Assembly (NCBI GenBank): GCA_026002855.1 | Contig: BPGD01000001.1 | Location: forward strand, 2,116,001-2,180,000 | DNA: 64,000 nt | From: Bryobacteraceae bacterium | GTDB taxonomy: Bacteria; Acidobacteriota; Terriglobia; Bryobacterales; Bryobacteraceae | Direction of reading: 5' to 3' | Shown here: positions 32,687 to 40,543 of the stretch, piece by piece | How positions within the stretch are numbered: the stretch's first letter is position 1 | Layout: each line of letters starts with the position of its first letter | The notes under the pieces: model-generated | Told to the model about the DNA's origin: nothing | Seen by the model: only the letters and a program-made list of their open reading frames with translations | Databases searched by the model: none | Program-made: the position numbers and the translations under genes

Positions 32687-32737
32687 AGCGGCCAGGTGCG
32701 TCTGCGTCCAACTCTTCCACTGGCCATGCATCCGAGC

Positions 32738-32764
32738 CCCGCGGCGCGCGCCGCGGGCCTTTTT
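32738..32764 (+). terminator. Intrinsic terminator after the sigma/anti-sigma/Spy operon
   Basis: A perfect 20-base palindrome, CCCGCGGCGC followed by its complement, is followed by CCTTTTTG. It lies 52 bases after the Spy-like stop and ends the operon. Confidence 0.8.
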
Positions 32765-32851
32765 GTCGGAAGCCCGCCCGAATCTCTACGGAATATAATT
32801 GAATCAAACCAATGTGGCCCTGCCCGAGAGGGGCACATACCGGGAGGTTCG

Positions 32852-33547
32852 ATGATGACTGCGTGGACGAAACTGGGACTGACTCTTGCGGTGACGGTGG
32901 CCATCGGCTGGGGCGCGTCGCCGTCCATCGAAGCCAATGGGATTTACGTGGAGGCGCGCTCGGCGGACGTCAATGCCGGCTCGTGCTTCATTAACAGCGA
33001 GGTGCAGCTTGTGGGCAACCTGGCGGTGTTCGGCTGGGTGATCGAGCACGGGCAGGTGGAGGGCGTGCGGCTGGACGGGCTGAAGATGGCTGCGGCGGTG
33101 AAGGCGCGCTCGACGCTGGGCGACCTGACCGGCGAGCCGTACCCCGTCTATTCGGTGCTGATCTACGATGAGCGCGCCACGCCGGAACAGCGGCTGGCGC
33201 TGCGGCGCTTCGCGCAGCGCATGACCGGCGACCTGCTGGAGCGCGTCGTGAGCGAGTATTCCATGCCGATTGAGTTCCGCGTGGACGGAGAGAGCATCCA
33301 CGAAACGCGGGTATCGTTCACCGCGGGGACGCTGGCGGCGATCCGCACGCGCGCCATCGAGGCGGGCGACAAGGTGTGCGGGCACGAAGAGACGTTCTAT
33401 CCGCCGCTGGCGAAAACCGATCACGCGATGGCGGCCTTTACGCTGGAGAACCGGTTCAACGGCGACTCGCGCCAGGACCTGGGTGTGCGCTGGTCGCTGC
33501 CCTACAAGCGGAATGCCTTTGTGGCGACGTTTCACGTCAGCGAGTAG
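32852..33547 (+). CDS. Exported DUF1326-like protein
   Basis: The gene encodes 231 residues from the ATG at 32852 with GGGAGG upstream. A signal-like N-terminus (LGLTLAVTVAIGWG) precedes IYVEARSADVNAGSCF, which matches the start of DUF1326 proteins. The later blocks VLGWVIEHG-like, GVRLDGLKMAAAV, YPVYSVLIYDERATPEQR and LRRFAQRMTG agree. Molecular function of the family is unknown to me. The gene is flanked by terminators on both sides and appears to be a single transcription unit. Confidence 0.75.
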   Translation: MMTAWTKLGLTLAVTVAIGWGASPSIEANGIYVEARSADVNAGSCFINSEVQLVGNLAVFGWVIEHGQVEGVRLDGLKMAAAVKARSTLGDLTGEPYPVYSVLIYDERATPEQRLALRRFAQRMTGDLLERVVSEYSMPIEFRVDGESIHETRVSFTAGTLAAIRTRAIEAGDKVCGHEETFYPPLAKTDHAMAAFTLENRFNGDSRQDLGVRWSLPYKRNAFVATFHVSE

Positions 33548-35386: not shown

Positions 35387-36559
35387 ATGCCAGGAGGGAT
35401 GGACGAGCTGGTCCAGCCTGGCACGGAGCCGGCGGCCGCGCCGCCGCCGGCCATTGTGGCCCCGCCGTGGATGGACTCTTTGGGGCGCGCCACGATTCTG
35501 CTGGTGGACCATGTGGAGCTGAACCGGCAACTGATCAAGGGAATCCTGAAGGCAGGCCCGTACCGGCTGCTGGAGGCCCGCTCGCAGGAAGAAGCTTTCC
35601 GGATTCTGGACCAGGAGCCGGTGGACCTGATCATTTCGGAGTGGCTTGTCAGCGACTGGAGCGGACGGCCGAACAGTGGGCTGGAGTTCTGCCGCAAGAT
35701 CAAGTCCAACCGGCGCACGCATCTGATTCCCATCCTGATTGTGACCAGCGTGCAGGGGATCGAGAACGAGGTGGCCGGGCTTGAGTCCGGCGCCGATGAG
35801 TTTCTGGTGAAGCCGCTCCAGCCGGCGGTTCTGCGCACGCGCATCCGGACGATGCTGCGGAACAAACGCGTGGTGGACTCGCTCGAAGAGGCCGAGACGA
35901 TCCTGTTCGCGCTGGCGCAGACGATTGAACAGCGGGACAAGGAGACGGGCAACCACTGCCAGCGGCTGGCGGCGTTGAGCGTGGCGCTTGGGTCGGCGCT
36001 GGGCCTGCCCGAGGAGGATCTGCTGGCGCTGCATCGGGGCGGGTATCTCCACGACATCGGCAAGATCGCGGTGCCGGACGCGATTCTTTTCAAGCAAGGA
36101 GAGCTGACGCCGGAAGAGTGGGTGATCATGCGGTCGCACACGTGGAAGGGGGAGGAGATCTGCCGCCCGATGCGGTCGCTGCGCCCGGTGCTGCCGATCA
36201 TCCGCAATCATCACGAGCGGTGGGACGGCTCGGGCTACCCGGACGGCCTGAAAGGCGAGGACATTCCGCTGCTGGCGCGGATTCTTCAATTGGCCGACAT
36301 CTTTGATGCGTTGACAAGCCAGCGGAGCTACAAGGCGGCCTATCCGGTGGAGGAGGCGATTGCCCAACTGCGCCGCGAGGCCGAGCTGGGGTGGCGGGAT
36401 CCGGAGCTGGTGAGCGTCTTCTGCGAGGTGGTGCGGCTGCCGTCGTTGCAGTACAGGCTAGGCGTAGGGCTGCCGGGGGCGGAGCTGCCGCCGGAGACGC
36501 CGGAGCTGGCGGCGATGCGCGAGTCGCTGCTGCGGATGTCGCAGCAGTTGCTGAAGTGA
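35387..36559 (+). CDS. HD-GYP domain protein with degenerate receiver domain
   Basis: The gene encodes 390 residues. Residues about 35-155 resemble a response-regulator receiver, but the phospho-acceptor is Glu (LIISEW, about E85) and the acidic pair has lost one Asp (LLVDHVE, about D41-H42); the Thr and Lys of the fold (IVTS, LVKPL) remain. Residues about 165-350 are a complete HD-GYP domain with HCQRL, YLHDIGK, MRSHTWKGEEI and HHERWDGSGYP, the cyclic-di-GMP phosphodiesterase signature. The Glu may mimic phosphorylation. No partner kinase is adjacent. The start at 35387 lacks a good ribosome site; 35399 is an alternative. Confidence 0.9.
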   Translation: MPGGMDELVQPGTEPAAAPPPAIVAPPWMDSLGRATILLVDHVELNRQLIKGILKAGPYRLLEARSQEEAFRILDQEPVDLIISEWLVSDWSGRPNSGLEFCRKIKSNRRTHLIPILIVTSVQGIENEVAGLESGADEFLVKPLQPAVLRTRIRTMLRNKRVVDSLEEAETILFALAQTIEQRDKETGNHCQRLAALSVALGSALGLPEEDLLALHRGGYLHDIGKIAVPDAILFKQGELTPEEWVIMRSHTWKGEEICRPMRSLRPVLPIIRNHHERWDGSGYPDGLKGEDIPLLARILQLADIFDALTSQRSYKAAYPVEEAIAQLRREAELGWRDPELVSVFCEVVRLPSLQYRLGVGLPGAELPPETPELAAMRESLLRMSQQLLK

Positions 36560-36598: not shown

Positions 36599-38554
36599 CT
36601 ACTGGTTTTCCTTGCGCTGGTAGGGCTCCTGGAGGTACCTGGCCGCTTCTTCGAGCGCGCCCTGGGTGTTGTCCTTGGTGCGGAGCGCCTGCTGGTATTC
36701 GTTGCGGGCCCGGTCGCGCTGCTGGGTGATGTCGAAGATCTTGCCCAGGTTGATGTGGCTCCAGACGACCGTCCAGGAGGGCTCCTGGTCGCCGTTGAGC
36801 GCCTCGCGGAAGCTGTTGGCGGCGCTCTGGTAGTTGCCCATCAGGAAAAACACCTCGCCGACGCGGTAATGCGCGAGCGAACTGATCGGGTTCACCTCGA
36901 GCGCCTTCTGGTATTCCTTGAGCGCGTCGTTGTACTGGGCGATTTCAGCGAACTGCTCGCCGCGGCGGATGGCCACGGCCACGCGCATGTCGCGGCTGAA
37001 CCGGAGCACGCGGCCGTTGGGGTCGATGATCACCTTGCGCGGCTTGCCGAAGGTGTCCACCGAGAAGTCGGTGGAGGGCCCGACGACGATGACGCGCTGA
37101 AACTCGGGGTTGCCCTCAGTTTCAATCTTCAGCTCCACTGGCATGCGGAAGGTGTCGAGGTCCTGCTGGATGGTGCCCATCACGCGGAAGCCTTTCTGCG
37201 TGCGGTAGATCGTATATTTCAGCCGGAACTCCGGGGCGTCGGTCGACTCCAGCCACTGGATGAAGAAGCCCTGGAGGTTTTCGCCGCTGATGCTTTCGGC
37301 GAGCCTGCGCACGTCGTCGGTAGTGACGGAGCGGTTGGCGAACTGGTCCGTGGCGGCCTTGAGGAATCTGAAGAAGGCCTGGTCGCCGATGACCCAGCGC
37401 AGCATGTGGTAGACGGCGGCGCCCTTGCTGCCGGTGATGGCGAAGAACTCCGGGCTGTAGTCTTCAAAGCGCGCCGCCTGGCGCACCGGGGCGTCGGTGA
37501 CGGTGAGCGCGTCGACGTAGAGGTCGCGGATCTCCGGTTCCACGGCCTGCGCGCCGTTCAGGTGTTCGAGGTAGAGGATTTCGGCGTAGCGGGCCATTCC
37601 ATTGGTGATCCAGATGTGATTGCGGTGCGCGGGGGAGAAGAGAATTCCATACCACTGCCGGGTGATCTGGTTGGCGAGCAGGCGCAGGTTGGGTTTGGCG
37701 CCGGCGGCCGAGGTCGAGATGAACAGAATGCCTGGTGCGGCGTAACCGTTCGGCGCGCCCTCGCCCGTTTCGACCAGTGTGAGATTGCGGTACGGCGGCA
37801 CGCCGAAGACGCTGGTCAGATAGGCCATCACGCGTCCGGTCTCCTCGCCCCAGGCCTGGGCGTTGGCCTGCCGCTCGCCGCGGAACCACACCTCGGTGAC
37901 CGAGCCTTCGGACTCGACGCGCCGGGGCTCGCCCTGAACCAGCGCGAGGCTGCCGTAGAAGCCGGGCGTGGTTGACTTGAACGTGATGCCCTGGCCGTCA
38001 GCGGCAGGCAAGGCCACGCCGCTTGAAGTGACGCGGAAGCCGGCAGGCGCGCGCACGGTAAGCTCCATCTGGTAGCGGTCCGTCGTATAGCCGCTCACCG
38101 GGAACCACCGCGCCGGGTAGAGCAGGAAGGCGTGGTCCGGGCGGATGGCCGCGAAGGTGATGCCGTAGACGGGCGACTCCTCGTCGCCGCGAAGGGCGCC
38201 GCTGATCTGAAACGTCACGGTGACGGGCCGGCCGCGCTCGAGCGGCTGCGGGAAGAACAGGTCGACGGCATGTTCGTTGAAGCGCCGGCTGGTCTGGAGG
38301 GCCTGCCCGCCTTCGGCCTCTGCGGAGATCAGGTTCAGCGAGTTGTGCAGTTCAAAAGAGACGGTCTGCACGCGGTCTTCGGTGGGGACGAAAGTCGCCT
38401 GCGCGCGTTCGCTGAGGGTCTGCTGCGCGGGGTCGATCAGCAGCTCGATGCGGTAGCTTTCGACGTCCACGGCGCCGCGGCGCTGCTGCGCGGAGGCCGG
38501 GGCGGCCAGCAGGAGTGCGGCCAGCGTCGATGCAGCCAGAAGGGCGCGTATCAT
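36599..38554 (-). CDS. M1-aminopeptidase-like protein lacking zinc ligands, with TPR tail
   Basis: The gene encodes 651 residues with a signal peptide (LLAASTLAALLLAAPASAQ). Residues about 30-540 follow the M1 fold: an N-terminal beta saddle (YRIELLIDP, GRPVTVTF), then the peptidase region. Where M1 enzymes have HExxH, this protein has NQITR (about 295-299), and the third ligand Glu is Asn in WITNG (about 318). The exopeptidase GxMEN motif is also changed (GAPNGY). It should not bind zinc or cut peptides. Residues about 545-640 hold TPR repeats (YNDALKEYQKALEVNP). It overlaps lpxB by four bases and is probably co-transcribed downstream of it. A scaffold role in the periplasm is possible. Confidence 0.85.
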   Translation of the reverse strand: MIRALLAASTLAALLLAAPASAQQRRGAVDVESYRIELLIDPAQQTLSERAQATFVPTEDRVQTVSFELHNSLNLISAEAEGGQALQTSRRFNEHAVDLFFPQPLERGRPVTVTFQISGALRGDEESPVYGITFAAIRPDHAFLLYPARWFPVSGYTTDRYQMELTVRAPAGFRVTSSGVALPAADGQGITFKSTTPGFYGSLALVQGEPRRVESEGSVTEVWFRGERQANAQAWGEETGRVMAYLTSVFGVPPYRNLTLVETGEGAPNGYAAPGILFISTSAAGAKPNLRLLANQITRQWYGILFSPAHRNHIWITNGMARYAEILYLEHLNGAQAVEPEIRDLYVDALTVTDAPVRQAARFEDYSPEFFAITGSKGAAVYHMLRWVIGDQAFFRFLKAATDQFANRSVTTDDVRRLAESISGENLQGFFIQWLESTDAPEFRLKYTIYRTQKGFRVMGTIQQDLDTFRMPVELKIETEGNPEFQRVIVVGPSTDFSVDTFGKPRKVIIDPNGRVLRFSRDMRVAVAIRRGEQFAEIAQYNDALKEYQKALEVNPISSLAHYRVGEVFFLMGNYQSAANSFREALNGDQEPSWTVVWSHINLGKIFDITQQRDRARNEYQQALRTKDNTQGALEEAARYLQEPYQRKENQ

Positions 38555-39699
38555 GACAAAGCCTCGCTTCCCAGATATGCGGCGATGCGCGCCGCGGAGG
38601 TTTCGAAGGGATCTTCGCCGGCGTCGAGCGCGGCACGGACGCGGCCGAGCGCGCTCCGCATGCGCTCGCGGGCGTCGGCGTCGCCAAGCAGGCGGAGCGC
38701 TTCGGCGGCGAGCCGTTCCGGCGTCATGTCGTTCTGGATGAGTTCCGGCGCGATCCGTTCTCCGGCCACCAGGTTGACGATGGAGAAGAACGGCGTGTGC
38801 ACGAACGGGCGTCCGGCCAGCCAGGTGAGTGGATGCACGCGGTAGAAGATGACCATGGGCGCGCCAAGCATCGCCGCCTCAGTGGTCACCGTGCCGCTGG
38901 CAGCCAGCACCAGATCCGCGTGCGCCATGGCGTCCCAGGTTTCTCCTTCACAGTATCGGACTCTTCCGCCCGCGACGAGGACATCAAAAAAGTCCTGCCC
39001 GAACCGGCTGCGGCTGCCCGTCGGCGCCGCCAGCAGGAACGTGCAGGCACGCTCGGCCAGCACGCGTTCGACAGCGCCGCGGAGAACCGGCAGATGCCGG
39101 GCGATTTCGCCCCGCCGGCTGCCCGGGCAGAGCGTGACCAGCGGACGGTCCTGCGGGATGCGGTGTTTCGAGAAGAACTCCGCGCGCCCGAACGACGGCC
39201 GCACGAGCCGCGCCGCCGGGTGCCCGATGTAGATGGCATTGACGCCGCGCGAGCGGAAAAAATCCTCCTCGAACGGAAAGATGCAGTGCAGTTCGGTTAC
39301 GTTTCGGCGCAATTGGCGCACGCGGCCTTCGCGCCAGGCCCAGGCCTGCGGCGCCACCAGGTGAAAGACGGGCACGTCCATCGCCCGCAGCCGCGCGGCC
39401 ACGCGAAGATGGAAGGCCGCGCTGTCGACAAGAAGCGCGGCCGCGGGCCGGCACCGGCGGGCCGCTTCCACCAGTGTTCGGTACTCGCCGTAAATGGCCG
39501 GGATGTGCCGGACGACCTCGACAAGGCCGACCACGGCGAGCTTTGCCTGATCGGCCACGGCGTGGACGCCGGCGGCGCGCATCTCCGGTCCCGGGCAGCC
39601 GAAGAATTCCACCGGCCCGAGCCGTCGCGCCAGCGCCCGCACGACGCCGGCGGCGTAGCGGTCCCCTGAAGGCTCTCCGGCGCTCGCAAGGATCTTCAC
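38551..39699 (-). CDS. lpxB: Lipid-A-disaccharide synthase
   Basis: The gene encodes 382 residues from a GTG at 39699. It joins UDP-diacylglucosamine to lipid X in lipid A biosynthesis at the inner membrane. Family marks: ILASAGEPSGD at the start, LVDSAAFHLRVA, APQAWAWR, CIFPFEEDFF, IGHPAARLV, LCPGSRRGEI, AASGTVTTEAAMLGAPMVIFYRV and NLVAGERIAPELIQ. Presence indicates a lipopolysaccharide-bearing outer membrane. Its stop overlaps the start of the M1-like gene. Confidence 0.95.
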   Translation of the reverse strand: MKILASAGEPSGDRYAAGVVRALARRLGPVEFFGCPGPEMRAAGVHAVADQAKLAVVGLVEVVRHIPAIYGEYRTLVEAARRCRPAAALLVDSAAFHLRVAARLRAMDVPVFHLVAPQAWAWREGRVRQLRRNVTELHCIFPFEEDFFRSRGVNAIYIGHPAARLVRPSFGRAEFFSKHRIPQDRPLVTLCPGSRRGEIARHLPVLRGAVERVLAERACTFLLAAPTGSRSRFGQDFFDVLVAGGRVRYCEGETWDAMAHADLVLAASGTVTTEAAMLGAPMVIFYRVHPLTWLAGRPFVHTPFFSIVNLVAGERIAPELIQNDMTPERLAAEALRLLGDADARERMRSALGRVRAALDAGEDPFETSAARIAAYLGSEALS

Positions 39700-39784
39700 G
39701 GCACACTCCAGTGTGCCATGGGCGTGGCGGGCGCGCGGGCGAAGGCTCATCAGGCCCTCTGCTATGCTGGAATTGCAGGGATTG

Positions 39785-40543
39785 ATGTCGTCTCCCAGCC
39801 TCCCTTCCCGCCTGCAACTGGTTCAGTTCGCCGACCATTTCCGCAATGAAATGGTGCCGCTCGGCAACCGCATCTGTTACTTTGCCGCCGCGGTGCCGCT
39901 GACGGAAGAAGACCGGCGGGAGCTGATCGAGGAACCGATTGCAGCGCTGCCGCCGTCGCTGGCGGCGCTGCTGCCCGAGGTGCGCATCTTTCTGGTGCCG
40001 TACCTTTGCCGGACGCGCGGCCACCGGAAGCGCGAGGCCGAAGAGACCTTCATCGCCACCGAACCGCCGGAGGCGGGCGAAGCGGTGCCTTCGAGCACGC
40101 TCGTCGAGCGCGATGCCGCAGTGCTGGCCTTCGCGGTGAAGGACGCTGAAGTCGCCGACCACCATTACCGCTTTTACCGCGCCATTGCCGAGCTGGCGGC
40201 CGATTCGCTGCCCGGCGGCATCCCGAAGGAATATCAGGCGCTGCTCGAGGCGGAACTCAAGGCGGGCGTGCACGGGGAAGTGGACGACGCCTCCTGGCGG
40301 CTGAAGACCGAGCTGACGCGGCGAGACCGCAACTTCGCCCGCCCGAGCGAGCGGCTGCGGCGCTATATCCGGCAGAGTTTCATTGACACGCTGACGCTGT
40401 ATCTGCACGGCATCTGCTGCGACATCGACGTGGAACCCGGGCCGCGGCAGATCCCGTCGAATTATCTGCGCAAGCGGCTCCAGCTTCTGAAGGAACTGTT
40501 CCCGCCGCCGCCGGGCTATGCCGTTTTCCCGGAAGACCTGTAG
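39785..40543 (+). CDS. Conserved-looking protein of unknown function
   Basis: The gene encodes 252 residues from the ATG at 39785. It is soluble, without signal peptide or membrane segments. Helical blocks rich in charged residues alternate with strands: LVQFADHFRNEMVPLGNR, CYFAAAVPLTEEDRREL, EVRIFLVPYLCR, then RPSERLRRYIRQSFIDTLTLYLHGICCDIDVEPG. It is divergent from lpxB and 58 bases upstream of rimO. Composition matches the chromosome. No family is recognised. Confidence 0.7.
   Translation: MSSPSLPSRLQLVQFADHFRNEMVPLGNRICYFAAAVPLTEEDRRELIEEPIAALPPSLAALLPEVRIFLVPYLCRTRGHRKREAEETFIATEPPEAGEAVPSSTLVERDAAVLAFAVKDAEVADHHYRFYRAIAELAADSLPGGIPKEYQALLEAELKAGVHGEVDDASWRLKTELTRRDRNFARPSERLRRYIRQSFIDTLTLYLHGICCDIDVEPGPRQIPSNYLRKRLQLLKELFPPPPGYAVFPEDL

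Follow-up and report, generated by a model that had tools for sequence, protein, structure and literature searches.

Full M1 aminopeptidases carry a helical domain IV after domain III. Among inactive or doubtful M1 homologues, TAF2 and Tma108 are eukaryotic proteins that are not exported, and TAF2 uses the M1 fold for binding. An excerpt of a 2024 review of inactive metallopeptidases names yeast Tma108 as one M1 case; nascent-chain binding through its substrate pocket has been suggested, and all of its active-site residues but one are kept (PMC11266112). In another metallopeptidase family, M48, the Escherichia coli protein BepA combines an active HExxH domain with a C-terminal TPR domain. As described in sections of one paper, BepA is periplasmic, with M48 and TPR domains in close association; its TPR domain contacts LptD and the BAM complex, and a chaperone-like activity beside proteolysis is weakened in the protease-dead E137Q mutant (PMC8423444).

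Here we describe a gene in a 64,000-nucleotide stretch (hereafter the window) of a 4.44-Mb Bryobacteraceae genome, whose product (hereafter the M1-TPR protein) is predicted to be a catalytically dead M1-family pseudopeptidase. Few studies have addressed the envelope biology of Acidobacteriota, which rank among the most common bacteria in soil. Like the M1 peptidases LTA4H, ERAP1, PepN and 6a8z, the M1-TPR protein has domains I–III and the exact spacing of the former motif; unlike them, it lacks the zinc ligands, GxMEN and the catalytic Tyr, and TPRs follow domain III. By description it can be likened to Tma108 and TAF2, as an M1 fold used for binding. With BepA it has in common the order of a metallopeptidase domain and a C-terminal TPR domain, whereas it belongs to another family and its envelope link is one of gene order. 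Judged from the sequence, what would be new against the known M1 pseudopeptidases is its occurrence in bacteria, its apparent export, its TPR tail and its linkage to a lipid A gene. Among openly licensed papers, a weak negative, we found no report of this protein, of a bacterial M1 pseudopeptidase with TPRs or of the pairing with lpxB, and passages of a Granulicella omics paper mention neither the protein nor the pairing (PMC7074687).

Results

Gene and predicted structure

The gene is one undisrupted reading frame with no internal stop (Table 1), and a stop-free match was found in its own genome and in 60/60 relatives searched. The closest named relative among the matches listed, a Bryobacteraceae bacterium of the phylum Acidobacteriota, has 90% identity. 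Pfam Peptidase_M1 covers residues 290–434 (55.6 bits; cut-off 27.7), residues 529–626 match several Pfam TPR families, and Pfam assigns the protein to M1, with no M48 domain. A hydrophobic N-terminal segment is present in 118 of 120 orthologues (defined below); since five of them carry a lipobox-like pattern, some orthologues may be lipoproteins.

Table 1. Positions in the window of the M1-TPR gene, its protein features and lpxB.
Feature	Position	Strand	Basis
M1 pseudopeptidase-TPR gene (predicted), 651 aa	36599..38554	-	ATG start, ORF and Pfam, stop-free matches in relatives
Export-type signal, N-terminal, about aa 1-22, ASA|QQ by eye	38489..38554	-	sequence
M1 domain I, aa 29-207	37934..38470	-	model and structural match
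M1 domain II, thermolysin-like, inactive, aa 211-436	37247..37924	-	Pfam, model and structural match
NQITR, aa 295-299, in the place of HExxH	37658..37672	-	alignment, orthologues
N318, in the place of the third zinc ligand	37601..37603	-	alignment; N in 75/79 named relatives
M1 domain III, aa 442-510	37025..37231	-	model
TPR domain, aa 521-642, at the place of M1 domain IV	36629..36994	-	Pfam and model
lpxB, directly upstream, 4-base ATGA overlap	38551..39750	-	profiles; start codon uncertain

The AlphaFold2 model, made from the window's protein aligned with 52 relatives, shows domains I–III followed by TPR helices (pLDDT 89.3, pTM 0.86), with low confidence at residues 1–26. All 50 Foldseek matches listed are M1 aminopeptidases or complexes with them, the best being 8sw0 (E = 1.6e-30). 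A second structural aligner superposed the model on LTA4H (4gaa; Z = 33.2, 413 aligned, 3.1 Å) and on 6a8z, a two-domain M1 protein of D. radiodurans (Z = 32.9, 402 aligned, 21% identity). Pfam, the model and the structural matches thus agree that the M1 fold is present. Folding of the TPR part alone, without an alignment, gave a pLDDT of 55 and was left out of the analysis. The sequence-only reading, which had described an exported M1-type protein with TPRs encoded by an intact gene, agrees with the domain matches, the export-type signal and the confident model.

Three other reading frames noted in the window are on the plus strand. A response regulator with an HD_5 domain (35387–36559) is convergent with the M1-TPR gene and ends 40 bases from its end; a 276-residue ORF (39713–40543) is divergent from lpxB and matches nothing in Pfam or NCBIfam at E <= 0.01; and a protein with a DUF1326 match is encoded at 32696–33547.

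Catalytic site

Alignment places NQITR-x18-N where M1 peptidases have HExxH-x18-E; with NQITR at residues 295–299 and N318, the x18 spacing is exact. The loss of all three zinc ligands, Asn replacing the third, is therefore as the sequence-only reading had it. The place of GxMEN is GYAAP, and that of the catalytic Tyr is G375. Three other M1 proteins are encoded in the same genome, and all three have HExxH.

For comparison, 130 loci (30 + 100) were fetched. They include best hits from 50 genomes out of 61 in one search, and cover a part of the 141 genomes that matched in a second search, of 396 genomes. Ten loci scoring <=200 bits against the window's protein (L114–L121, L129 and L130) were set aside by a threshold chosen after the scores were known; the site is intact in nine of them and lost in L114. 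The 120 orthologues retained come from 28 families of Acidobacteriota, and the TPR region is kept in all 120. The first His, and HExxH anywhere, occur in 0/120; the second His is kept in 23 and the last Glu in 8. One zinc ligand is thus left in 31 orthologues and none in 89, never more than one of the three. Tyr occupies the catalytic position in 13/120, and a loose G-x-M-E-[NHAS] pattern occurs in four, in all four outside the aligned GxMEN place.

A scan of genome contigs confirmed at least 528 stretches. The best 80 carry labels such as Acidobacteria, Bryobacterales and Terriglobia; the exception is L193, a public record labelled Acidimicrobiia that carries the M1-TPR gene at 54% identity and is probably a mislabelled bin. 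Without L164, a wrongly cut ORF, these 80 give 79 named relatives, whose labels include Bryobacterales and Acidobacteria. All 79 have N295 and R299, and the position of N318 is N in 75 and E in one.

The invariance of N295 and R299 is more than idle residues need, and it would suit an enzyme that uses another metal or another chemistry at a remodelled site of N295, R299 and N318. However, the four site positions vary by branch, with N-Q-R-N commonest (31/120) and R-E-Y-Q next (23/120), GxMEN and the Tyr are gone beside the zinc ligands, and no common polar set is left across the clade; we consider continued enzyme activity very unlikely. Sequence and model together indicate that the M1-TPR protein is a catalytically dead M1-family pseudopeptidase.

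Residues beside the former HExxH are also conserved (Q300 in 116, W301 in 118 and W302 in 107 of the 120 orthologues). This conservation, and the overlap with lpxB, which suggests translational coupling, could point to a periplasmic regulator that uses the old substrate groove to sense LPS or envelope stress and adjusts LPS synthesis in return. Such a role seems quite improbable to us, since Pfam finds no signalling domain in the M1-TPR protein and a second membrane-like segment occurs in 1/120 orthologues, barely above the threshold.

Origin of the inactive proteins

Two trees were calculated with the active-site columns removed. The inactive clade has an SH-aLRT of 96 in the tree on residues 200–510 (31 of the 120 orthologues, 32 active proteins and one other) and a bootstrap/SH-aLRT of 100/99 in the tree on residues 130–512 (19 of the 120 orthologues, 22 active proteins and one other). 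These sequence-based trees support a single origin of the sampled inactive proteins, as one clade apart from the active M1s. Since branching inside the clade broadly tracks the family labels, inheritance in Acidobacteriota looks largely vertical. One same-class orthologue, L049 of genome G058 (family f5), joins families without adjoining lpxB in the tree on residues 200–510 (SH-aLRT 94) and is unresolved in the other; its 7.9-kb locus has no lpxB match.

When 22 genomes were searched with a profile, of which 20 had given no match in the search of 396 genomes, 19 contained matches. HExxH is present in 23 of the 24 loci fetched from this search, a part of the matches listed, and absent from L285 of genome G161 (L114 is the same gene). 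L285 is a far-diverged M1-TPR protein placed outside the inactive clade in the tree on residues 130–512, perhaps by an independent loss of catalysis; its long branch is joined to another long branch, so this placement is unsure. No lpxB match was found in its fetched flanks.

Like the M1-TPR protein, L306 and L284 (L115 is the same gene), two proteins from other families, give a profile match that runs from M1 into the TPR part, but their HExxH motif is intact (HEIGH). Both fall outside the inactive clade in the tree on residues 130–512, and the TPR scores of L115 lie below the Pfam cut-offs. They are possible living relatives of the active ancestor. Because their match extends into the TPR part, the TPR tail may predate the loss of catalysis; of the proposal that the protein lost its ligands and gained TPRs, the tail stands, and it may have been gained before or after the loss.

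Selection

In four same-genus pairs, dN/dS of the M1-TPR gene is 0.09, 0.18, 0.17 and 0.18. The values for lpxB in the same pairs are higher in each (0.18, 0.24, 0.30 and 0.28), and may be slightly inflated since lpxB in relatives was taken from stop to stop, its start being uncertain. In three of the four pairs, dN/dS is 0.05, 0.10 and 0.05 in the TPR part and 0.01, 0.10 and 0.06 in domain III, and it ranges from 0.09 to 0.26 in domains I and II. With weighting by family, alignment columns of the 120 orthologues carry on average 2.65 bits of information in the TPRs, 2.46 in domain III and 2.0 in each of domains I and II. The TPR domain and domain III are the most constrained parts.

Simple decay of an M1 peptidase gene would predict close relatives with an intact site, and none was found among the 120 orthologues or the 79 named relatives. 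The stop-free matches in the own genome and 60/60 relatives, together with dN/dS of 0.09–0.18, argue equally against recent decay and against a sequencing error, and we regard the chance of simple decay as negligible. The dN/dS values, the orthologue counts and the tree show the inactive site to be under purifying selection. Selection on a non-catalytic role, proposed from the undisrupted gene, is well supported by these values, by the intact site in 0/120 and by the inactive clade (100/99).

Linkage to lpxB

The upstream gene was identified as lpxB by TIGR00215 (218.9 bits; cut-off 190.25) and PF02684 (E = 1.4e-75), and it is the sole lpxB match in its genome. When "directly upstream" is defined as the same strand with a gap under 250 bases, 85 of the 117 loci that could be decided have lpxB in this place and 32 do not; three loci are undecidable at contig ends. 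The two genes overlap in 39 of the 85 loci, given the start codons chosen in our analysis. The pairing occurs in 19 of the 28 families, and lpxB does not adjoin the gene in the decidable loci of the other nine (f5, f16, f27, f38, f66, f75, f76, f83 and f89). In L064 and L066 (f8), about 1.4 kb separates lpxB from the M1-like gene, a distance consistent with the insertion of a gene.

Where lpxB does not adjoin, the fetched flanks contain no neighbour common across families that could be a substitute partner. Within single families, 6/14 loci of f27 have the same gene, of about 400 aa, immediately upstream, and 3/3 loci of f76 have one gene in common downstream. Some families' upstream genes look, by eye, like a histidine kinase, a response regulator or MnmA.

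Wider flanks were compared for 21 loci, chosen mainly because lpxB was present; lpxB lies upstream in 20 of these, and the next steady upstream neighbour is an MnmA-like gene (by eye) in 7. Cluster k5 occurs in 7/21 at varying distance and on varying strand. Several of the remaining shared clusters cover the two genes in different reading frames and were taken as shadows. By eye, lpxB was not seen inside an lpxD-fabZ-lpxA operon in the wide loci.

Across the phylum, lpxB was found in 364 of 396 genomes, whereas no more than 141 have the M1-TPR gene at E <= 1e-30, some active M1 hits included. Genomes G332 and G380 contain lpxB, and in both the best match to the profile is an M1 protein with HExxH. 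Since lpxB is common where the M1-TPR gene was not found, this gene belongs to a part of Acidobacteriota and is not required for lipid A synthesis.

These distributions bear on whether the pairing reflects a common function. A periplasmic M1-TPR adaptor could have a general job unrelated to lipid A, such as binding exported proteins or peptides, with the lpxB pairing an old operon kept only for expression level. The nine families with the gene elsewhere, among which no neighbour recurs, and the frequency of lpxB where the gene was not found are in favour of this explanation, but the pair persists in 19 families on two separate branches while most other neighbours differ, and the wide loci, though mostly picked for lpxB, have it upstream in 20 of 21 and the MnmA-like gene in seven. 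We consider a general adaptor plausible though somewhat unlikely. The sequence-only reading had taken the overlap as a hint of an envelope role linked to lipid A. The 4-base overlap is there, and the conservation of the pairing suggests a stronger link than it implies; the argument remains one of gene order, and nine families lack the pairing.

Discussion

LpxB works in the cytoplasm, and the M1-TPR protein looks exported, so direct contact between them is unlikely. An envelope role of the M1-TPR protein may nevertheless be inferred. Our preferred, tentative proposal, to which we give a little under an even chance, is that this exported dead M1-TPR protein acts in the periplasm as a scaffold or chaperone for building the outer membrane, comparable to a BepA that has no protease. 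The mature protein would be located in the periplasm, where its TPR surface, and perhaps the old substrate groove too, would hold another protein, probably a client or a machine of outer-membrane biogenesis. As a non-cutting scaffold or chaperone, it might keep step with lipopolysaccharide output. Its working mode would resemble the chaperone side of BepA, the M48-TPR helper of LptD assembly in E. coli. Since the E137Q mutation weakened the chaperone-like action of BepA, a protease-free version is not a plain analogy.

LptD matches were found in 11/11 genomes tried, some of them weak (the weakest, in G225, at E = 2.1e-5). A BepA query gave matches in 11/14 genomes; none of them ran from the M48 part into the TPR half at E <= 0.001, a search that strongly diverged TPRs may escape, and TPRs alone accounted for three separate matches. 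Two M48 proteins of the own genome scanned with Pfam had no TPR. M48 proteins without the TPR half of BepA are suggestive only as a sign that BepA has been replaced. In our analysis, the LptD and BepA results allow a BepA-like role. That LptD itself is the client is an unlikely guess. In a more specific version, the M1-TPR protein would serve Acidobacteriota as a factor dedicated to lipopolysaccharide or outer-membrane biogenesis: a protease fold would have become an LPS-export chaperone, tied to lipid A synthesis via the coupling to lpxB. This version is conceivable and we hold it to be rather doubtful.

Genes of this kind are likely annotated as M1 aminopeptidases by domain match, and that label would be wrong. 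With tighter constraint than lpxB in four same-genus pairs and matches in its own genome and 60/60 relatives, the M1-TPR pseudopeptidase is a concrete candidate envelope factor of Acidobacteriota, and it illustrates how a protease fold may become a binding protein.
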